Source of the DNA: Bacteroidetes bacterium OLB12
GTDB taxonomy: Bacteria > Bacteroidota > Bacteroidia > Cytophagales > Cyclobacteriaceae
Reading direction: 5' to 3'
Length of the DNA: 40,916 nt
Assembly: GCA_001567185.1 (NCBI GenBank)
Contig: LNFR01000008.1
Span: forward strand, 1-40,916
Shown here one piece after another: positions 7,958 through 28,807 of this stretch (position 1 is its first letter; the number at the start of each line of letters is the position of its first letter). The notes under the pieces were generated by a model. That model saw only the letters and a list, made by a program, of their open reading frames with translations, was not told the origin of the DNA and ran no database searches. The translations under genes and the position numbers were made by a program.

Positions 7958-7986
7958 TTGAAGACTAAGCATCCCTAAAAACCTAA

Positions 7987-8056
7987 ATGACAATTGACAA
8001 AAGGCAATTTGACAAAGACAAAGTTGTCAATTGACCTTTTGTCAACCGTCAATTAA
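7987..8056. repeat. Intergenic heptad-word stem-loop (TTGACAA type)
   Basis: The gap after the GIN ORF is made of near-repeats of TGACAAA/TTGTCAA. TTGACAAAAGG (7994-8004) pairs with CCTTTTGTCAA (8035-8045), and TTGACAA (8009-8015) pairs with TTGTCAA (8024-8030) on the same centre. The result is an 11-bp stem, a 4x4 internal loop, a 7-bp stem and an 8-base loop. It could terminate the padR operon, and it also overlaps the likely promoter of the next gene. It has the same design as the elements at 11936, 14249 and 15754. Confidence 0.7.
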
Positions 8057-8071
8057 TTTTTCCTACATTTC
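8037..8071 (+). promoter_or_regulatory. Candidate promoter of the MBL-fold RNase gene
   Basis: TTTTG at 8037-8041, inside the right arm of the stem-loop, is followed after 22 bases by TACATTTC (8064-8071). This matches the Bacteroidota -7 consensus TAnnTTTG except for the last base. It would start transcription just upstream of the ATG at 8088. Confidence 0.35.
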
Positions 8072-8087
8072 GGCAAGACAAATCGAA

Positions 8088-9488
8088 ATGAATGTTCGCT
8101 TAAAATTTCTGGGAGCCGCACAAAGTGTTACCGGTTCCAAGTACTTACTGGAAATTGACAAACAAAAAATACTGGTTGATTGCGGCCTGTTTCAGGGGCA
8201 AAAAGAATTGCGCCTGCGCAACTGGCAAAGTTTACCGGTAGATGCTGCCTCCATTCATACTGTTATTATAACCCACGCTCATATTGATCACATCGGGTAT
8301 TTACCGCGGTTGGTAAAAGATGGCTTTCGTGGCAAGATCATCTGCACGCACGCCACCGAAGACCTGATGAAGATTATGCTGCAAGATGCTGCCAAACTTC
8401 AGGAAGAAGAAGCAGAGTTTGCTTTTAAACGCGGCTACTCCAAACACAGCAAACCCGAACCACTCTTTACCGAAAAAGATGTGGAAGATGTGCTGCCCCT
8501 GGTTGAAAGCGTTCGGTTTAAGAAAGAAATAAAAATTCTGAATCAGCTATCTGTTTGCTTTTTTAACTCCGGCCACATTCTTGGTTCAGCCATTGTGCAG
8601 CTCACCATTCATTCGCAACAACACGAAAAGAAAATTATTTTCTCGGGCGATTTGGGCCGGTATAACGATGCCATCATGCATGCACCCGAAGCACTGGAAC
8701 TTGCCGATGTGCTGCTGGTTGAATCTACCTATGGCGACCGCTTAAACCCGGTAGATCAGATTGACAACCATCTGACACAAATCATAAATGAGGCCGTAGC
8801 CCACCGCGGAGTAATTGTAGTGCCGGCTTTTGCGGTGGGGAGAACACAAACACTCATTTACCATTTCCATCAGTTGATGGAACAAAAACGAATTCCAAAA
8901 CTGCCCATCTACATCGATAGCCCCATGGCTATTAATGTTACTGATTTATACGAGCGCCACAGTTACAATCATAAAATAAAAGTAGCACATCAACAGGGCC
9001 AGTTGATCAGCATTTTCGATTCGCCCCATATTCACTTTTGTACCACCCGCGAAAGCTCCAAAGCGTTAAACGACCTGAAAGGTTCGGGAATTATTATTTC
9101 AGCAAGCGGCATGGCCACCGGTGGCCGTGTGCTGCACCATTTGTTTCACCGGCTGCGAAATGAAAACGATACCGTGCTGTTTGCCGGTTATCAGGCCGAA
9201 GGTTCGCGCGGCCGTAGAATACAGGATGGTGAACCCCTGGTGAAAATTTTTGGCGAAGAAGTTCCGGTGAAGTGTCATGTAAAAACCATAAGCGGGCTTT
9301 CGGCCCATGCCGATCAATCGGAACTTTTGCAATGGCTCGATAATTTTAAAGACAGCCCCAAAATTACCTTCATCACCCACGGTGAAACATCGAGTGCAAA
9401 TACACTCGCAGAAAAATTAAAAACCCGAAACTGGAATACCGTTGTGCCAGAATACCTCGAAACATTTGAATTGTTTAGCGGTATCTAA
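8088..9488 (+). CDS. MBL-fold beta-CASP ribonuclease (RMMBL domain protein)
   Basis: A 466-residue protein with the full architecture of beta-CASP metallo-hydrolases (CPSF73/YSH1-like). The zinc motif HAHIDHIG lies near residue 70, followed by the His of SGHILGSA and the Asp of FSGDLGRY. The beta-CASP domain begins around VLLVESTYGDR and includes VVPAFAVGRTQTLIYHF and SASGMATGGRVLHHL. The C-terminal RMMBL region has SGLSAHADQSELLQWL and FITHGE. Members are RNA endo/exonucleases. An in-frame start at 8031 would add 19 residues, but it lies inside the stem-loop and the added sequence is not family-like. The ATG at 8088, just before VRLKFLGAAQSVTGS, is preferred. The gene stands alone between two unrelated operons. 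No accessory or catalytic residue appears to be missing. Confidence 0.9.
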   Translation: MNVRLKFLGAAQSVTGSKYLLEIDKQKILVDCGLFQGQKELRLRNWQSLPVDAASIHTVIITHAHIDHIGYLPRLVKDGFRGKIICTHATEDLMKIMLQDAAKLQEEEAEFAFKRGYSKHSKPEPLFTEKDVEDVLPLVESVRFKKEIKILNQLSVCFFNSGHILGSAIVQLTIHSQQHEKKIIFSGDLGRYNDAIMHAPEALELADVLLVESTYGDRLNPVDQIDNHLTQIINEAVAHRGVIVVPAFAVGRTQTLIYHFHQLMEQKRIPKLPIYIDSPMAINVTDLYERHSYNHKIKVAHQQGQLISIFDSPHIHFCTTRESSKALNDLKGSGIIISASGMATGGRVLHHLFHRLRNENDTVLFAGYQAEGSRGRRIQDGEPLVKIFGEEVPVKCHVKTISGLSAHADQSELLQWLDNFKDSPKITFITHGETSSANTLAEKLKTRNWNTVVPEYLETFELFSGI

Positions 9489-9628
9489 CTGTTTGTGTCA
9501 AAGGCTGTTGTAAAATGTGCATTCTCAACAATCATTTTAGCAACTCAAAACCAGAATCAAACCGGTCATTTTTCATTAAAAAAGCAACCTTACCTTCAGT
9601 AAGATGTCTGCTTTTTCCTGTAAAAGTC

Positions 9629-9680
9629 GGGGTTAAAATATTTACCCCCCCATGCAACCCCCGCAGCATTCCTTGCATCT
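9629..9680 (+). promoter_or_regulatory. Candidate leader/autopromoter of the ECF sigma operon
   Basis: The 214-base gap before the sigma gene holds an imperfect palindrome at 9629-9648 (GGGG...CCCC with an A/T-rich core). It is followed by GCAACC (9654-9659) and, 15 bases on, GCATCT (9675-9680). This resembles the GCAACC / CGTCT-type pair seen ahead of autoregulated ECF sigma genes in Bacteroidota. Transcription would start about 10 bases before the ATG at 9703. The assignment rests on resemblance only. Confidence 0.35.
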
Positions 9681-9702
9681 TGGTATTGATTAGCTGCTTT
9701 AC

Positions 9703-10291
9703 ATGGATTTTGAAGTTTACCGGGCCAAAGACATGGAATTGATTGAGGGTTGCAGGCGCAACGACCGCCAGGCGCAAAAAACGCTTGTACGATCGCTATA
9801 GCTCCAGACTGTATGCCTTGTGCTGCCGGTACATCAAAGATAAAATGGAGGCCGAAGACGTTTGGATCACTGCTTTTACTAAAATTCTGAACAAGATTGA
9901 TCAATACACGGGTGAGGGAAATTTTGAAGGATGGATGCGCAAGATTGTGGTGAACGAATCCCTCAGCTACCTGCGCAAGCACAAAAACATGTACCTGGAA
10001 ACCGACATTGAAGCAGCTGACTACGAACCCGACTATCAAAATCTGGAGGCGCACTTAGAGGCCGAAGACCTGATGAAGATAATTGAAGCATTGCCTGCCG
10101 GATATCGGATTGTGTTTAATCTGTATGCGATTGATGGCTATTCGCACAAAGAAATTGCCGAACAGCTGAACATCAGCGAAAACACATCGAAGTCGCAATT
10201 GAGCCGGGCACGCGTTGCATTACAAAAAAGTTTACAAGAAGCAGAGCAGGACTTGCTCTACAAACAAAAAGGATATGAACCGAATAGATGA
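9703..10291 (+). CDS. ECF RNA polymerase sigma factor (frameshifted near the N-terminus)
   Basis: An ECF sigma-70 factor of 195 residues once a single extra A is removed from the A6 run at 9776-9781. The natural start is the ATG at 9703, giving MDFEVYRAKDMELIEGCRR and continuing into QKRLYDRYSSRLYALCCRY. The rest is open in the +1 frame to 10291. Region 2 runs through EAEDVWITAFTKIL and FEGWMRKIVVNESLSYLRKH; region 4 is LPAGYRIVFNLYAIDGYSHKEIAEQL...TSKSQLSRAR. Without the correction the ORF would have to begin at a TTG (9743) and would lose the start of region 2. The gene overlaps the anti-sigma gene by 17 bases, the usual arrangement for translational coupling. It would direct RNA polymerase to a small regulon in response to an envelope or surface signal relayed by the anti-sigma. 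Confidence 0.85.
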
Positions 10292-10932
10292 GCTTTTCAG
10301 AAACAAACTGGCTAATCACCAGATGGCACCATCGGCTGATGCGTGGCAAAAAGTAGAAGCCGGTTTAACAAAAAAAATAGCGTTTGGGTTTGGCGCCTGG
10401 CGGCTGCATTGGTGTTGTTCGGATTAGTGAGTGCCTGGTATTTATGGCGTAGTGCGAGGTGCAACCGGAGTTGGTACAGCAACCTGTTCCACCCACACAA
10501 AAAGAAATTCCGGTAATCGTGCAACCGGAAGAACAAAAACAGAATCTGGCTGAAACGAAAAAGGAAACACCACTAAATCAAAAAATAAACTCAAAACGCG
10601 CTACAACAGAAATCAAAAAAGAAGAACCTGAAAAGGTGAATACGATACAACCAGAGGTTACTATTCAGCCTGAGATATTGATTACAGAAAATAAAACAGA
10701 ATCCACTCCGGTACGCAAACCCATTGTAATTGAGTTTACGCTAGATGCGATACCGGCCACCATTACGGAACCTGCAATGGCAAGTACCGGAGATGACAAG
10801 AGTGGATTACAAAAGATTCTCGAGAAAGCGCGCGATATTAAAAACGGAGAAAGCGAACTGGGCAGTTTGCGCGATGCCAAAAACGAATTGTTCGCCTTCG
10901 ATTTCAGAAAAGACAAAACAAAAAGAAATTGA
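10275..10932 (+). CDS. Membrane anti-sigma factor (two frameshifts)
   Basis: The product was pieced together from three frames. The ATG at 10275 gives a cytoplasmic N-terminus (MNRIDELFRNKLANHQ...APSADAWQKVEAGLTKK) typical of Bacteroidota anti-sigma proteins. The A8 run at 10370-10377 then breaks the frame. With one more A the sequence continues as a tryptophan-flanked membrane helix (WRLAAALVLFGLVSAWYLW). A second single-base loss near 10454 is needed to join the periplasmic part, which begins VQPELVQQPVPPTQKE and runs to 10932. That part is rich in Glu, Lys, Thr and Pro and looks like an extended linker. The corrected length is 219 residues. The 17-base overlap with the sigma gene and the membrane topology support the assignment. 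Uncorrected, only a 158-residue ORF from a GTG at 10459 is visible, with no membrane segment. Confidence 0.75.
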
Positions 10933-10934
10933 TT

Positions 10935-11933
10935 ATGAAGCGTACGATGATAACAACCTGTTTGATTGCACTAAGTGTGGTTGGGTTTAGCCAAACCAAA
11001 CCAGCCGATACCGTAGTAATAAAAGTAGGCAGCGGCAGTAAACTAATCCTGGCTGTGCATGACAAGAAAGATCTGGAAACCATGAAACAATATGATTTTC
11101 AGAAACTGATTTCGGATCTGATTGTTAAACTGGAGAAAGAAGACACCTCAACCCATCATAAGCCATCGTTCGAATACCTGAAAACGGATTCCGCCCGGCT
11201 GGCTAAGGCTAAGGAAACTGTTGAAGCCGAAAAAGAAGACTGGGGTGTGGATTGGAGTAGCAACCACAAAGAGAGCAGACGCTTTCGCAAGCGTACTTAC
11301 CACTCGATGAATTTCGACCTGGGCACCAATAACTACATTACTAAGAACGGTTTCCCCGATCAGGATAATAGTTTATATACTGTAAAACCGTGGGGCTCGT
11401 GGTATGTGGGTATCAACAGCGTACAACGTACCCGCATCGCAAACAAATTTTACCTGGAGTGGGCGTTGGGTGCAAGCTGGTATAATTTCAAATTTCAAAA
11501 CGCACAAACCCAGGTGAGCAAAGATGACAACAGCGTAATCTTTCAACCCGACACGCGCGATGCCGATTTCAAAAAAAGTAAATTAACGGCTTCTTATCTT
11601 AATGCATCGCTTGTTCCCATGCTCGACTTTGGTGGCAACCGGCATAAGCCCAGTTTTTTTGATGGCTATAATGCCGACTCTTTTCGGATTGGTGTTGGTC
11701 CATACGTTGGTTATCGTATTGACAGCTACAGCAAACAGGTATTTAAAGAAAATGACTCCGAACGCAAGCCGCGCAAGCACGATAATTTTTATCTGAATAA
11801 CCTGCGCTACGGATTGCGCGCCCAGATTGGCTTTGAGGATGTGGATTTATTTTTCAACTACGATTTGAACGAGCTGTTTGCAGAAAACAAAGGCCCGCAG
11901 TTGAATGCGTTTAGTTTTGGAATAACCTTTTAA
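10935..11933 (+). CDS. Outer-membrane beta-barrel protein
   Basis: A 332-residue secreted protein. The start is the ATG at 10935, two bases after the anti-sigma stop (a TTG two codons earlier is ignored). The signal peptide is MKRTMITTCLIALSVVGFSQ. A charged, probably helical segment follows (residues ~45-120, rich in Lys/Glu/Asp). From about residue 120 come alternating amphipathic strands with aromatic girdles (SMNFDLGTNNYI, GSWYVGINSVQRTRI, YLEWALGASWYNFKF, FRIGVGPYVGYRIDSY, NLRYGLRAQIGFEDVDLFFNYDL). It ends in phenylalanine (FSFGITF), the usual outer-membrane barrel end. It is the third gene of the sigma/anti-sigma operon and may be the sensor or a target. No specific family was recognised. 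Confidence 0.75.
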   Translation: MKRTMITTCLIALSVVGFSQTKPADTVVIKVGSGSKLILAVHDKKDLETMKQYDFQKLISDLIVKLEKEDTSTHHKPSFEYLKTDSARLAKAKETVEAEKEDWGVDWSSNHKESRRFRKRTYHSMNFDLGTNNYITKNGFPDQDNSLYTVKPWGSWYVGINSVQRTRIANKFYLEWALGASWYNFKFQNAQTQVSKDDNSVIFQPDTRDADFKKSKLTASYLNASLVPMLDFGGNRHKPSFFDGYNADSFRIGVGPYVGYRIDSYSKQVFKENDSERKPRKHDNFYLNNLRYGLRAQIGFEDVDLFFNYDLNELFAENKGPQLNAFSFGITF

Positions 11934-11935
11934 CG

Positions 11936-12012
11936 GATTCAAGATTCAAAATTTAAGATTCAAGATTCAAAATTCTTGGTGCAGGTCAATTTTGAATCTT
12001 GAATTTTGAATA
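11936..12012. repeat. Intergenic heptad-word stem-loop (GATTCAA type), between convergent genes
   Basis: From 11936 the sequence runs in exact 7-base steps: GATTCAA twice, AATTTAA, GATTCAA twice, AATTCTT. After a 13-base loop it returns as TTTTGAA, TCTTGAA, TTTTGAA (11990-12010). Bases 11958-11974 pair perfectly with 11988-12004 (17 bp), and the pairing extends outward with mismatches. It fills the gap between two converging genes and could act as a bidirectional terminator. It shares its words with the element at 14249. Confidence 0.8.
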
Positions 12013-12017
12013 GTTTC

Positions 12018-12515
12018 CTACTTAAACGCTTCCCCTTTGCTTAACACCATTTCTTTCTCATCGCCTTTTAGTTTTAGAAGGTGGCTTACTTGTGCAGGTG
12101 TTGGCCAATTCAAAAAGTACCAGGCCAGCAAAATAACAAAGCCCAGGGTAAACCCGAGGTGGTGTGTAAGTACCAAACCCACCGGCATGGTTAGGGTAAT
12201 CAGCGCCAGGGCAACAAAGCGGTTCATCAACACACCCCCAAGTAATTCCAGTTTTAATCCCAGTCCGGTTTGCTTCAAAATTTTTGCTGCGCGCGAACGC
12301 ACAAAAAAATGAACAAGCGTTAGGATTGTAAGAGCTACAACTGCAACACCAATCAATAGATAGTTTACAAGGGCAGCATCCGCAATCCAAACCGGGGCGG
12401 CAAATGCATAGACACTGGCATAATGAAAAATAAATACAAGCAAGGGTACCATCATTAATTGGTAGCCGGTATTATTTAGCCTAAAGAAATACTCCTTAAC
12501 CGAGTTAAACTTCAT
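12018..12515 (-). CDS. Small integral membrane protein, function unknown
   Basis: A 165-residue protein with four predicted membrane helices at about residues 18-38, 46-70, 90-112 and 116-136, and no signal peptide. The N-terminus (MKFNSVKEYFFRLNNTGYQ) and the C-terminal ~30 residues (LLKLKGDEKEMVLSKGEAFK) are soluble and charged. I do not recognise the family. It stands alone, divergent from the TetR gene and convergent with the outer-membrane protein gene. A perfect -7 element lies 25 bases upstream. A role in phenylacetate metabolism is not implied by position alone. Confidence 0.7.
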   Translation of the reverse strand: MKFNSVKEYFFRLNNTGYQLMMVPLLVFIFHYASVYAFAAPVWIADAALVNYLLIGVAVVALTILTLVHFFVRSRAAKILKQTGLGLKLELLGGVLMNRFVALALITLTMPVGLVLTHHLGFTLGFVILLAWYFLNWPTPAQVSHLLKLKGDEKEMVLSKGEAFK

Positions 12516-12539
12516 TTTTTATCGGTTCTGAATTTTAAT

Positions 12540-12547
12540 CAAATTTA
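12540..12547 (-). promoter_or_regulatory. Candidate -7 element for the small membrane protein
   Basis: On the minus strand this reads TAAATTTG, an exact match to the Bacteroidota -7 consensus TAnnTTTG, 25 bases ahead of the start codon. No convincing -33 TTTG at the usual 19-base distance was found. Confidence 0.35.
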
Positions 12548-12581
12548 ATTAATTACTTTAGCCTGTGATTTCTACCAAGTC

Positions 12582-13166
12582 ATGGAACTAGCAGGTAATT
12601 TATCCCGTAAAGAACAAGTAATCCGTAGTGCTGCCGAATTATTCCGCGAAAAGGGTTATGCAGCATCCTCTATGCGCGATCTTGCCCAGAAGTTGGGCAT
12701 AGAAGCAGCCAGTTTATACTCACATATTAAATCGAAAGAAGAAATTTTGCAGCACCTGTGTTTCGACATGGCTGCCGAGTTTCGCAAATCCCTGGCCGAA
12801 GTAGAAAAGAAAGAGGTATCGGCATCGGAAAAACTAAAACTTGGAATTATCGGCCACATACAGGTAATGGCAAAAGACCTTACGGCATCGGCTGTGTTTA
12901 TGAATGAGCATAGGCACCTGAGCCAGCCCTACCTGCGCGATTTTCTGTTGCTGCGCATCAACTACATCAATCGCTTCAAAAGCATTATTGAAGAAGGTGC
13001 CCGGCAGGGTGAATTCAAAGACTCCATTGATAAGAAACTGGCCGTAATGACCCTGTTTTCGTCCCTCAACTGGATGCCCATGTGGTATGATCCGTCAAGT
13101 AGAATTGTACCCCAGGATTTAGGTCAGCAACTTGCTGATATGCTGGTGAATGGCTTGAAAAAATAG
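12582..13166 (+). CDS. TetR family regulator, probably of the paa genes
   Basis: A 194-residue protein. The N-terminal TetR helix-turn-helix covers about residues 9-55 (KEQVIRSAAELFREKGYAAS, then SMRDLAQKLGIEAASLYSHIKSKEEIL). The all-helical C-terminal ligand domain includes FMNEHRHLSQPYLRDFLLLR. TetR proteins repress neighbouring genes until a ligand binds. It lies 90 bases ahead of paaA on the same strand, so a phenylacetyl-CoA-responsive role like that of PaaR is the natural inference. The ligand domain itself does not prove it. The N-terminus is well placed with the ATG at 12582. Confidence 0.88.
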   Translation: MELAGNLSRKEQVIRSAAELFREKGYAASSMRDLAQKLGIEAASLYSHIKSKEEILQHLCFDMAAEFRKSLAEVEKKEVSASEKLKLGIIGHIQVMAKDLTASAVFMNEHRHLSQPYLRDFLLLRINYINRFKSIIEEGARQGEFKDSIDKKLAVMTLFSSLNWMPMWYDPSSRIVPQDLGQQLADMLVNGLKK

Positions 13167-13223
13167 CCTGCGTTAATCACGTATTTTATTCTTTTCCATT
13201 ACCCCGCTAAGGGTATTCCTGTT

Positions 13224-13250
13224 TATATTTGCAAACGATTGTTAGGCAAA
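13224..13250 (+). promoter_or_regulatory. Candidate paaA promoter with overlapping dyad
   Basis: TATATTTG (13224-13231) matches the Bacteroidota -7 consensus exactly, 25 bases before the paaA ATG. Overlapping it, TTTGCAAAC (13228-13236) faces GTTAGGCAAA (13241-13250), an inverted repeat with a one-base offset centred on GATT. It is well placed to be the operator of the upstream TetR protein. No clear -33 element was seen. Confidence 0.4.
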
Positions 13251-13256
13251 TAAACC

Positions 13257-14240
13257 ATGTACGGAGGCGGAAACACATTTGAAGGTATTAAAACCGATAG
13301 CCTTGCCCAGGAAGACCCAGGCATGCTGGCTGCTTTTGAAGCCCGTATTGAGCGGGGTGAAAAAATTGAACCCTCCGATTGGATGCCGCAGCTCTACCGC
13401 AAGCAACTCATTCGCATGATTGAACAACATGCGCACAGCGAAATTATCGGAGCCCTTCCGGAAGGCACCTGGATAACCCGCGCACCCGGCTTTAAACGCA
13501 AAATGGCGCTAATGGCCAAAGTGCAGGATGAAGTAGGTCACGCACAACTATTATATAGTGCTGCCGAAACCTTGGGCAAATCGCGCGAGCAGATGATCGA
13601 TGACCTGATTAATGGCAAGTCGAAGTACTCTAATATTTTTAACTACCCTACTTTTACCTGGGCCGATTGCTGTTTTATCTCGTGGCTGGTGGATGCCGGG
13701 GCCATTGTAAATCAGTTAGCAAACGCGAAAGGAAGTTACGGTCCGTACTGCCGCGCGCTGGATCGGATTTGTGCCGAAGAATCATTTCACTTGAAGTATG
13801 GCCATCATTGCGTAATCTACTTAGCCAGTGGCACAGCCAAACAACGGCAAATGTTTCAGGAAGCATTGAACCGCTGGTGGCCACCGATGATGCACTTCTT
13901 CGGGCCGTCTGATAAAATCTCGGCACACACCGAAGTGTTGATGCGCTGGAAAGTGAAGATGGGCACCAACGATGAAATGCGCAATCAGTTTCTGGATATG
14001 TATGTTCCAAAAATCTGGGAGCTTGGGTTTACCATTCCCGATCCTAACCTGAAGAAGAACGAAAGCGGCAAGTGGGAATACACCGAACCCGATTGGGAAG
14101 AATTTAAACGCGTAATAAATGGCGATGGACCTTGCAACAAAGAACGATTAGAAGTACGCAGGGTAGCTGAAGCAAGAGGCCAGTGGGTGCGCGAAGCGTT
14201 AAAGACACCAAAAACAAGTTACGTTACTCCGTTGGCTTAG
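13257..14240 (+). CDS. paaA: 1,2-phenylacetyl-CoA epoxidase, catalytic subunit PaaA
   Basis: A 327-residue ferritin-like di-iron oxygenase subunit. With PaaC (structural), PaaB and PaaD (iron-sulfur assembly), and normally the reductase PaaE, it epoxidises the ring of phenylacetyl-CoA. The ligand helices show [10 protein letters not shown] (ExxH) and the second [11 protein letters not shown]; the substrate-pocket region [18 protein letters not shown] is typical. The C-terminus [17 protein letters not shown] is family-like, and the length matches E. coli PaaA (~309) plus a short extension. The start codon follows a candidate promoter. The 98-base gap to paaB is unusually long for this operon and is filled by a heptad-word stem-loop. 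The assignment is secure. Confidence 0.97.
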
Positions 14241-14248
14241 TAATTCAG

Positions 14249-14342
14249 GATTCAAAATTCAACATTCAAAATTTGGGTGGCGAGCTTTGAATACCTAACG
14301 TTTTGAATCTTGAATTTTGAATCTTAAATCTTAAAATCTTGA
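14249..14342. repeat. Heptad-word stem-loop (GATTCAA type) inside the paa operon
   Basis: The left arm 14249-14271 pairs with 14301-14323 at 22 of 23 positions (a single C-C mismatch), around a 29-base loop. The right arm continues in 7-base steps (TTTTGAA, TCTTGAA, TTTTGAA, TCTTAAA) up to and into the TTG start codon of paaB at 14339. The words are the same as in the element at 11936. It may attenuate or process the paaA-paaB transcript. Its origin as an insertion is inferred from the short gaps usual in paa operons. Confidence 0.8.
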
Positions 14343-14938
14343 ACTCCCTCGATCCACGTGTGAACCGATTACCGCAACTGAAGGAAGTTGTTTTGCCCAA
14401 AGCTCCTTTAGATCAGTTTGGTACGTATGAAGTATTTGTACAACCCAAAGAAGGAAAACCATTTCAACACGAAGGAATTGTACATGCACCTAACCTGGAG
14501 TTGGCGTGGGTGCTGGCGAAAGAAGCTTTTACACGCAGGTTTACCTGTACCTCATTATATGTAGTTGATACACGTGATGTATATGTATCGCCCTTAACAG
14601 AAGGCGATAAAAATGCGTATGATCTTATTCCGGAAATAACAGAACAAGCCGGAAACAAAAAGAATTTTGAAATCTATCATTTGGTAAAACGTGGAAAGCA
14701 ACATGTGCATGTGGGCACGGTACAAGCGGTATTACCCCAGGAAGCCATGCAACTTGCCGGCAAGCAATTTAACAATGGCAAAATTGTGTATAATGTATGG
14801 GCTATTGCTACCGATACAATCCGGTTTACCACCGATGAAGAAAAGGAGTTGTGGCTTACCTTACCGAAAAAAAAATTCCGCGATGCCTCGGATTACAAAG
14901 GTGGCGATAAACTGAAAGCGTTTTTGGAAAAGAGATAG
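14339..14938 (+). CDS. paaB: Phenylacetyl-CoA epoxidase subunit PaaB, tandem two-domain form
   Basis: A 199-residue protein with two PaaB-like units. The first is at about residues 27-88 (YEVFVQPKEGKPFQHEG...APNLELAWVLAKEAFTRR), the second at about 104-165 (FEIYHLVKRGKQHVHVGTV...LPQEAMQLAGKQF). E. coli PaaB is a single unit of about 95 residues, so this is a duplicated or fused form. PaaB is a non-catalytic bridge in the PaaABC epoxidase assembly; having both copies in one chain may replace a homodimer. The start is a TTG that lies within the stem-loop repeat. A GTG at 14360 is an alternative but would cut off NSLDPRV, which looks like the natural N-terminus. It is followed 46 bases later by paaC. 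Confidence 0.9.
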   Translation: MNSLDPRVNRLPQLKEVVLPKAPLDQFGTYEVFVQPKEGKPFQHEGIVHAPNLELAWVLAKEAFTRRFTCTSLYVVDTRDVYVSPLTEGDKNAYDLIPEITEQAGNKKNFEIYHLVKRGKQHVHVGTVQAVLPQEAMQLAGKQFNNGKIVYNVWAIATDTIRFTTDEEKELWLTLPKKKFRDASDYKGGDKLKAFLEKR

Positions 14939-14984
14939 AGCCGGAGTTTTATAAAAGAACAAATCCAGCACCATTAGAAACCCG

Positions 14985-15743
14985 ATGACTATGAACACCG
15001 CCCTAAAAGAACTTCTCTACAAAATGGCCGATGATCAATTAATTCTTGGTCATCGCAATTCTGAATGGACAGGCATGGGGCCTTTGCTGGAAGAAGACAT
15101 AGCCTTTTCTTCCATGGCTCAGGATAAAATTGGTCAAGGTTTAGCACTCTACACGTTATTGCAAACACTGGGCGAAAGCGATCCCGATACGGTTGCCTTT
15201 ACACGCAATGCCAACCAGTTTCACAATTGCATTTTGGTTGAGCTGCCCAACCAGGAATACGACTTTAGTTTAATCCGTCATTTTTTATTCGATTCGGCCG
15301 AAGCATTGCGATTTGAATACCTCAGCCATTCTTCGTACGAACCCCTTGCACAATTAGCGCGAAAAATCCGGGGTGAGCTGCGTTACCATACCCTGCATGC
15401 AAACACATGGATGAAACAACTTGGGTCGGCTACTGAAGAAAGTATTGCGCGACTGCAAAACGCATTGGAAGTTGCACTCCCCTATGCGCTTGGTATCTTC
15501 GAGGCCTCGCCTTACGAAACAGAACTGATTGATAAAAAAATATTTATTGGTGAAGCTGCATTGAAAGAAAAATGGGTATCAAAAATTGAATCGGTTATTA
15601 ACCAAACGCAACTACACCTGCCCGACTGGAAAACCCTTACACCCGTTTATGGCGGACGCATCGGAAAACACAGTGAACACCTGCAACCGTTGTTAGACGA
15701 AATGAGTGAGGTATTTCGGATTGATCCTGCTGCGGAATGGTAA
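14985..15743 (+). CDS. paaC: 1,2-phenylacetyl-CoA epoxidase, structural subunit PaaC
   Basis: A 252-residue ferritin-like subunit that pairs with PaaA in the epoxidase. Recognisable stretches are MADDQLILGHRNSEWTGMGP, LEEDIAFSSMAQDKIGQGLA, and FLFDSAEALRFEYLSHSSYEPLA. PaaC lacks a working di-iron centre but is required to stabilise PaaA. Two ATGs (14985 and 14991) are possible; the first is used. The C-terminus (EMSEVFRIDPAAEW) is the usual family end. The gap to paaD holds another intergenic repeat. Confidence 0.96.
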   Translation: MTMNTALKELLYKMADDQLILGHRNSEWTGMGPLLEEDIAFSSMAQDKIGQGLALYTLLQTLGESDPDTVAFTRNANQFHNCILVELPNQEYDFSLIRHFLFDSAEALRFEYLSHSSYEPLAQLARKIRGELRYHTLHANTWMKQLGSATEESIARLQNALEVALPYALGIFEASPYETELIDKKIFIGEAALKEKWVSKIESVINQTQLHLPDWKTLTPVYGGRIGKHSEHLQPLLDEMSEVFRIDPAAEW

Positions 15744-15853
15744 GTCAGTTGACGGTTACCTGTTTCCGGTAATCGGTGGTCAATAATCAGTGGACTAACT
15801 GGTAACAAGAAACTTGTAACAGGAAACCAGTAACCAGAAGCAAGTAACAAACA
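15744..15853. repeat. Intergenic 14-bp period repeat with inverted arms (GTAAC type), between paaC and paaD
   Basis: GTAAC recurs exactly every 14 bases at 15802, 15816, 15830 and 15844, inside degenerate 14-mers such as GTAACAGGAAACCA. Upstream, GGTTACCTGTTTCC (15754-15767) pairs with 15822-15835 at 12 of 14 positions. Between them, AATCGGTGGTCAAT and AATCAGTGGACTAA form another 14-base pair of copies. The word differs from the GATTCAA elements but the period and dyad design are the same. The last copy ends just before the paaD ATG. Confidence 0.7.
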
Positions 15854-16323
15854 ATGAACCCAACCATCCTCCACATCCTTGAAACCGTAAAAGATCCGGA
15901 GATCCCTGTTCTCTCGCTGGTGGATCTGGGTGTAATTACAGAAGTAAAGGTTGAAGGAAATACCGTTCTCGTAAAGATGACACCCACCTTTGTTGGCTGC
16001 CCTGCTATGGACTATATGAAAGCCGAAGTGGAAACTGCGTTGATCCAACAAGGCTATATACCAAAAGTTACCATCACATTTGAAAAGTCCTGGAGCTCGG
16101 ACTTAATCTCTGAAAAAGGAAAAGCAGCTCTGAAAAAATACGGTCTCGCCCGCCACCCGATACTAAACTCTTTATTGATTTAGAAATATTGGAACCCGCT
16201 ATATGTCCGCGCTGCAACAGCTCCAACACCGAACTAAAAACTCCCTTTGGCTCTACCCTTTGCCGTGCCTTGTATTATTGTAACGATTGTAAAGAAGCCT
16301 TTGAACAGTTTAAGCAGATTTGA
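15854..16323 (+). CDS. paaD: Phenylacetate degradation protein PaaD (frameshifted)
   Basis: PaaD belongs to the MIP18/DUF59 family and is thought to help mature the iron-sulfur or di-iron centres of the epoxidase system. Residues 1-98 contain the MIP18 core (ILETVKDPEIPVLSLVDLGVI, then MTPTFVGCPAMDYM). The visible ORF stops at 16183, but the family's C-terminal zinc ribbon is present in the -1 frame at 16201-16320: CPRCNSSNTELKTPFGSTLC and YYCNDCKEAFEQFKQI. One missing C around 16151-16158 (CGCCACCC read as CGCCCACCC) gives Ala-Arg-Pro-Pro-Asp and joins the parts into 156 residues, close to E. coli PaaD (165). The gene is probably intact in the organism. No paaE follows. Confidence 0.9.
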
Positions 16324-28769: not shown

Positions 28770-28807
28770 CAGCGCGGCTATTGTCCTTAAGGACAATAGC
28801 CGCGCTG
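28770..28807. terminator. Perfect 38-base palindrome, transcription terminator
   Basis: AGCGCGGCTATTGTCC (28771-28786), the tetraloop TTAA, and its exact complement (28791-28806) form a 16-bp perfect stem, extended by one C-G pair (28770/28807). A short T-containing tail (GCTTTA) follows. It lies 18 bases after the stop of the small secreted protein and 15 before the esterase start, so it most likely ends the lipoprotein transcript. The U-tract is weak for a classic intrinsic terminator. Confidence 0.75.

Follow-up and report, generated by a model that had tools for sequence, protein, structure and literature searches.

Seven-base modular hairpins in intergenic spacers of Bacteroidetes bacterium OLB12 and their changing words at fixed gaps

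Contig LNFR01000008.1 of Bacteroidetes bacterium OLB12 (assembly GCA_001567185.1; Cyclobacteriaceae) is 40,916 nt long. The entire contig (C8) was taken as the window, the stretch of DNA analyzed here, and its genome of 3.6 Mb in 118 contigs is referred to as G000. Four intergenic gaps of the window, g1 to g4, hold repeats written in degenerate seven-base words, and at the orthologous gaps of related genomes a seven- or eight-base rhythm or a hairpin often remains while the words differ. We propose that such spacer hairpins evolve by gain and loss of whole units together with template switching, and that they are kept or tolerated where a hairpin in the spacer is useful. We give this reading a probability of about 0.5.

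Heptad arrays and dyads in intergenic gaps

An earlier note on this DNA, made from the letters alone, had described inverted repeats built of 7- or 14-base near-repeats in all four gaps. Direct reading confirmed its words: GATTCAA at g2 and g3, the TTGACAA type at g1, and GTAACCA/CCAGTAA at g4. The g2 hairpin (11936..12011) lies in a convergent gap, and its arms (11951-11974/11988-12011) are 92% complementary; the g3 hairpin (14241..14338) occupies the whole paaA–paaB gap and has arms (14243-14271/14301-14329) that are 90% complementary. At g1 (7978..8061), a TTGACAA-type dyad has 38-nt arms (7978-8015/8024-8061; 79% complementary), an 8-nt loop, and a T-rich end (AATTTTT). The CCAGTAA/GTAACCA array of g4 (15744..15853), which occupies the paaC–paaD gap, showed the weakest dyad of the four: the arm search listed no arm pair, the dyad score was 11, and folding z was −2.1 and −1.8 in two runs. 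The inverted repeats of the earlier description were thus recovered at g1, g2, and g3, but only weakly at g4. Its near-repeats were recovered at g2, g3, and g4, where period 7 was significant (p 0.002 each). The gap g1 was poorly phased (p 0.022), its self-match being higher at lags 15 (0.40) and 22 (0.39) than at lag 7 (0.35). The 14-mer character proposed for g4 was borne out by a self-match slightly higher at lag 14 (0.59) than at lag 7 (0.55). Both arms are written in one heptad word at g2, at g3, and, in G000, at the gap between the genes that we take to be atpD and atpC.

The periodicity scan covered a G000 sample of 708 kb (20% of the genome), of which 397 kb came from contigs already known for GATTCAA matches. 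Gaps of 50–250 nt were scored with a cut-off of p ≤ 0.005 against first-order Markov resampling, and genes and spacers were assigned by the analysis's own gene caller. At period 7, 16 of 288 gaps passed, versus none at periods 5, 6, 8, 9, 10, 11, and 13. In the sister genome G023, whose DNA is about 93% identical to that of G000, period 7 was found in 9 of 275 gaps, periods 5 and 6 in one each, and periods 8, 9, 10, 11, and 13 in none. The choice of contigs did not create this signal, because the yield, counted at the threshold of the fold comparison below, was about equal on GATTCAA-match contigs (8/169) and other contigs (5/99); the window itself gave 3/19. Units in the G000 heptad gaps are degenerate, and one of the 16 gaps, on contig C15, is a conserved, operator-looking repeat outside the heptad-hairpin family. 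A 14-base repeat with ATTTTGTAAGTTAC at L053:7041-7166 was nearly unchanged in its G023 orthologue, operator-like rather than a drifting array.

A dyad search blind to period returned 22 dyads with a score of at least 13 in the G000 sample, 20 of them intergenic, and none in a shuffled control (one copy, shuffled inside 50-base blocks). Both the periodicity and the dyads exceed chance. The 13 intergenic G000 dyads with a score of at least 15 showed self-match peaks at lags 7 (0.47), 14 (0.46), and 21 (0.36), and the 10 dyads of the first G023 sample gave a slight peak only (0.31 at lag 7, 0.34 at lag 14). On inspection, heptad hairpins accounted for about half of the 20 intergenic dyads in G000, and the rest were mostly terminator-looking. 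Furthermore, folding z fell below −2 in 9 of the 16 heptad gaps versus 20 of 261 other gaps, with 10 gaps between the cut-offs excluded. A further intergenic feature of the window is a loopless perfect palindrome whose arms are 19 bases long (28770-28807).

The genes around g3 and g4 lie on the + strand: a paaA-type gene (13257..14240; PaaA_PaaC, PF05138) upstream of g3, a paaB-type gene (14339..14938; PF06243) between g3 and g4, a paaC-type gene (14991..15743; PF05138) upstream of g4, and a gene for an FeS_assembly_P protein (15854..16183; PF01883) downstream of g4, which is probably paaD judging by its position. A DUF2807 gene lies on one side of g1, and a beta-CASP ribonuclease-like gene follows.

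Words and unit lengths at orthologous gaps

Orthologous gaps were compared in six gap sets comprising 91 gaps of 40–250 nt; shorter, longer, and unplaced gaps were excluded. With G000 and G023 set aside, period 7 was found in 24 and period 8 in 8 of 79 gaps (p ≤ 0.01), counts that are descriptive because relatives are not independent samples. Other periods appeared twice (13 and 5), both at g2. In 82 control gaps from the paa-gap regions, period 7 was found in 2 and period 8 in none. The words above null at g4 were CCAGTAA in G000, G017, and G008, GACTAAG in G023 and G031, a TTGACAA-like word in G009, and CTGGATA in G007 and G035; those at g3 were GATTCAA in G000, G023, and G017, CCAGTAA in G011, and a TTTGAGA-like word in G019. 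Further gaps were heptad-phased without a clear word label (g3 in G009, G008, G026, and G024; g4 in G026 and G029), and g4 in G024 had period 8. Placed on a PaaA-C tree, the labels above null correspond to 3–4 word changes at g4 and 1–2 at g3. Array length varies as well: the CTGGATA array at g4 differs by 42 nt between G007 and G035 (51 vs 93). These results agree with the earlier proposal in that form can outlast sequence: words differ at orthologous gaps while a heptad or octad rhythm remains, with a hairpin at some gaps. Unit length as a genome-wide trait was considered and dropped, because samples of G005 and G030 showed so few phased gaps (period 7 in 3/83 and 1/78, period 8 in 1 and 0, and period 11 in 1/83 of G005).

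Among the genus genomes that encode the flanking protein, the best 30 of 36 were used to follow the atpD–atpC gap and the best 30 of 34 to follow a gap at L011. At atpD–atpC, 10 of the 30 genomes had less than 30 nt and no element. Among the 19 gaps tested, period 7 was found in 6 and period 8 in 7, and an inverted repeat (p ≤ 0.05) in 14, versus 11 of 82 controls. The arms look unrelated between genome groups, and both arms of the hairpin alter together, with three kinds of paired change: the arm pair is CAAGATTC/GAATCTTG in G000, CAGGATTC/GAATCCTG in G023, AAGATTTAAAA/TTTTAAATCTT in G009 and G353, and CAATGTTC/GAACATTG in G011.

The excess of inverted repeats and the paired arm changes at atpD–atpC would also be expected if these were selected RNA elements (terminators, or 3'-end or intercistronic stabilizers) whose heptads are a by-product and whose structure is kept by stem selection while the letters drift. 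GC-rich hairpins with T-runs in the g1 gap of G027, G016, and G025 and in the g2 gap of G007 and G035 point the same way. However, this explanation leaves the 7/8-base rhythm unexplained, and the rhythm persists without a fold at g3 and L011. Two of the gaps lie between same-strand paa genes, where termination would be costly, and the ten short atpD–atpC gaps lack the element altogether. A scan for intrinsic terminators (short GC-rich stem plus T-run) called none inside the four gaps; for the region it gave 14 sites where 10.6 would be expected, which is not above chance. We consider selection on RNA structure alone possible but unlikely. Since the heptad hairpins of g1 and g2 stand where some relatives have terminator-like hairpins, a role at transcript ends is plausible there; a spacer or processing stem at g3, g4, and atpD–atpC would be a guess.

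Finer changes were read between G000 and G023 at loci of the exact GATTCAA doublet, which has 20 matches in G000 (reversed control, 0) forming 12 loci, all 12 intergenic. Seven of these were placed in the G023 DNA examined, the other five being unplaced, and the word family was present at 7/7, a count that is biased because five of the seven lie in stretches chosen for the G023 doublet; L001 and L018 alone are free of this bias. The indels of at least 4 nt at the seven loci measured 5, 6, 7, 7, 7, 7, 9, 9, 14, and 49 nt. Six of these 10 are divisible by 7, compared with 3 of the 42 indels found across 109 other orthologous gaps. In the g2 loop, a 20-nt segment is inverted in G023, with 18 of 20 positions matching and a score of 16 inverted versus 5 direct. 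Variant words stand side by side in single arrays (AAATCTC, AAATCTT, and GAATCTT at L009; GATTCAA then AATTCCT at L005), which suggests word drift. The earlier note had asked whether orthologous gaps carry no element or another word. Other words were found among relatives at g4 and g3 and no element in the short atpD–atpC gaps, and the seven GATTCAA loci kept the word family in G023.

Word differences could also have arisen by homologous recombination, if lineages with different ancestral arrays exchanged flanking DNA. Words do recur out of tree order, and between G000 and G023 paaD (82% identity) and paaC (90%) are less alike than paaA (96%). Against this, in each of the four genes, across the eight genomes compared, G000 and G023 are each other's nearest relatives, and recombination cannot account for the loop inversion or the unit indels; as a general explanation it is doubtful. 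At L006 (G000 contig C48, near 70384), compared with L339, one flank is 99% identical to G023 and the DNA elsewhere about 93%, as after a recent transfer or in a mixed contig.

At g4, the GACTAAG doublet (≤1 mismatch) occurs in G023 at this gap only, and in eight genus genomes it was not enriched (forward 0–10 vs control 1–10 per genome). Replacement of the g4 word in G023 without another extant copy, and a unit length that is nearly always 7 or 8 regardless of the word, would suit a dedicated trans-acting enzyme (e.g. a reverse transcriptase or template-reiterating polymerase) writing 7-8-base units into spacers. Slippage can account for unit change, however, and the analysis, which included no search for reverse transcriptase families, turned up no candidate gene; we regard such an enzyme as highly improbable. 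A related idea, a sequence-independent structural lineage in which a fixed gap passes on a hairpin of 7/8-base modules throughout the genus while its words and module length are rewritten with an enzyme-set step size, seems to us a rather speculative one.

Recurrence of words within and beyond the genus

Element words are not arbitrary. In the genus, the exact GATTCAA doublet was found 20 times in G000, 19 times in G023, and 0–7 times in each of the other 38 genomes, in two of which the reversed control gave 5 and 2. When one mismatch was allowed, 6 of its 8 occurrences in the G000 sample and all 18 in the G023 DNA examined were intergenic. CCAGTAA doublets (≤1 mismatch) numbered 10 in G000 and 10 in G023 (controls, 1 and 0), and TTGACAA against its reversed control gave 3 vs 3 in the G000 sample and 6 vs 1 in G023. 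As GATTCAA and CCAGTAA exceed their controls, word dispersal or shared descent is also at work. The earlier note had suggested a process that does not copy one sequence. No near-identical full-length copy of any element was found in the 708 kb sample, in agreement with this proposal, but the recurrence of GATTCAA and CCAGTAA indicates that words are not free. For 17 elements, the longest other match in the sample had about 70-75% identity if it exceeded 50 nt, and otherwise 78–90% over at most 50 nt. Plasmid copies of g2 were looked for and none was found.

The scatter of one word across many spacers of G000 and G023, together with Y1_Tnp matches in 33 of 40 genus genomes, raised the possibility of non-autonomous mobile elements, either REP/REPIN sequences moved by RAYT or miniature inverted-repeat transposable elements (MITEs). 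The absence of near-identical copies from the sample and the retention of the word at the same place at seven loci in G023 argue against mobility. In addition, none of seven words lay within 400 nt of the Y1_Tnp match in 18 genus stretches (nearest, about 480 and 620 nt), a GATTCAA word was near Y1_Tnp in 1 of 20 gammaproteobacterial loci, and G017, G007, and G010 (81% complete) had no Y1_Tnp match yet had heptad or octad gaps. Mobile elements are therefore very unlikely as the source. A REP/RAYT origin in particular was rejected: Y1_Tnp was searched for in 40 genus and five gammaproteobacterial genomes, and the flanks scanned showed no link. REP/REPIN sequences are small extragenic palindromes like the elements here, but in the available part of the source they are described as many fixed-sequence copies linked to RAYT (PMC3116915), neither of which was seen here. 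Both G000 and G023 also have long hairpins whose ends are of the AAGAGG type and which carry AAAAGT motifs (L048:7118-7210 and L216:5511-5604); they look like small MITEs or insertion sequence (IS) ends. In G023 one 73-nt hairpin was listed at two positions 562 nt apart (L221:8713-8785 and 9275-9347). On contig C4 of G017 (about 52843-91739), CCGGTAACCAGTAA recurred several times at intervals of about 2.7 kb, like a tandem gene-plus-spacer unit.

Beyond the genus, a 21-mer of three GATTCAA units was found in many phyla, in at least 119 stretches, 80 of which have titles. Among these listed loci, hairpins were found at 15 of 19 from Thioalkalivibrio (three genomes by record names) versus 7 of 61 other titled loci; 8 more were found at the 39 untitled loci, and positions drawn at random within the 119 loci gave 6. 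The Thioalkalivibrio loci, among L091-L170, are rich in heptad hairpins of the GATTCAA word, several of which have loops rich in G/C, and show the same architecture in a gammaproteobacterium. A 14-base string of the GATTCAA family is also present in a Lyngbya upstream region, according to the part of that paper available (PMC2799420). Across 296 genomes of the window's phylum, the GATTCAA doublet was found in 19 and its reversed control in 11; for CCAGTAA the corresponding numbers were 19 and 15, with control genomes tallied by eye. Because these counts are near those of the controls and a word-overlap test was weak (8/25 genus words vs 3/25 reversed), one dictionary shared across phyla is not claimed.

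A possible mechanism and its known relatives

The changes, we infer, come about by polymerase slippage and template switching. Whole units of 7 bases, sometimes 8, would be gained and lost in tandem, and through the spread of a mutated unit the word could drift or give way to another. In addition, short switches of template between the two sides of the fold may copy one arm onto the other, which would restore pairing and might flip the loop. If many words are tolerated, the word and even the unit length could turn over while the architecture stays. The likely use would be at the RNA level, as a generic stem at a transcript end or between cistrons. Template switching has been proposed to create a stem in one event, and loop-inversion-only and multiple-compensatory patterns are described as enriched in the accessible part of that study (PMC8794818).

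Several observations weigh against slippage and template switching as the explanation. Slippage alone leaves the choice of 7 and 8 unexplained. Four of the 10 indels at the GATTCAA loci are not unit-sized, and in the automatic gap set the seven heptad gaps gave ragged alignments with 21 indels, of which 4 are multiples of 7. The loop inversion was seen at one locus only, and the same study, as far as its available part goes, terms a stem-maintenance role less clear and reports no significance for the 'compensatory plus loop inversion' pattern (PMC8794818). Divergence was not significantly higher in heptad gaps (median identity 0.70 vs 0.86 in others, p 0.11; 6 vs 108 gaps). The dyad, which the earlier note had taken as constant, proved optional: heptad-phased g3 gaps of G009, G017, G008, and G026 had no significant fold (4/8 orthologues), and at the L011 gap, where period 7 was found in 9 of 27, few fold and most heptad-phased gaps lack a significant fold. 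Because the GACTAAG doublet is absent elsewhere in G023, its arrival at g4 was not by copying from another extant locus, and the low paaD identity makes recombination possible there. Looser labels assigned by eye gave 5 changes at g4 and 4 at g3, several of them not above null. Finally, the Markov null involved no exact shuffle, and the orthologous gap sets were picked since G000 carries arrays there, among relatives that are non-independent.

The kind of element is already known. Cyanobacterial STRR repeats are tandem heptads and resemble the elements here, in which a tandem 7-base unit (16/288 gaps), an intergenic location (12/12), and length varying by units (6/10 indels) were likewise found. 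The closest relative is the P6b stem of the Nostoc trnL (UAA) group I intron, a hairpin of 7-base repeats with the word classes TDNGATT and NNTGAGT, in which, as described in the available part of the source, the class has been repeatedly replaced at the orthologous site between strains, with gains and losses of 7 or 14 nt (PMC4476775). The elements here share with P6b arms written in one heptad word (g2, g3, atpD–atpC) and word switches (at least three at g4 and at least one at g3 with strict labels); unlike P6b, which is one intron site in cyanobacteria, they occupy many spacers between protein genes, use more words, and include 8-base units. Heptameric intergenic repeats have also been described in Xanthomonas and Nostoc (GGGAATC, GGGGA(C/T)T; in Xanthomonas 89–93% lie in spacers), and most of them are flanked by the same genes in two species, with varying length and sequence (PMC4692102); three Calothrix heptanucleotides are cited in the same paper. 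They share the 7-base unit and the spacer location with our elements, but their words are G-rich and were studied as quadruplexes, and word replacement at a gap is not among the features described in the accessible portion of that paper. TAACTGA repeats, in turn, are intergenic in Beggiatoaceae, Cyanobacteria, and five Bacteroidetes; some of their gaps also hold other heptamers, and close relatives may have shorter gaps without repeats (PMC4679880). Unlike the elements here, they are, in the part of the source at hand, direct repeats of one word with one inverted case, and related words are rarely repeated in the main genome. In light of the heptameric intergenic repeats (PMC4679880, PMC4692102) and the P6b stem (PMC4476775), the earlier statement that no named element family fits was too strong.

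No Rfam match above the gathering cut-off was found in the window, and no account of these particular elements was found in the literature searched. What is added is a system of many spacer sites in one genus, with differences in word and module length at fixed gaps. Heptad repeats have mostly been treated word by word in the literature, to the extent that the cited sources represent it; here, replacement, change of module length, unit indels, and a loop flip can be seen at fixed places. The question 'why seven?' thereby becomes testable in a few operons, and these spacers offer a natural system for following how hairpins are made and mended through replication errors.

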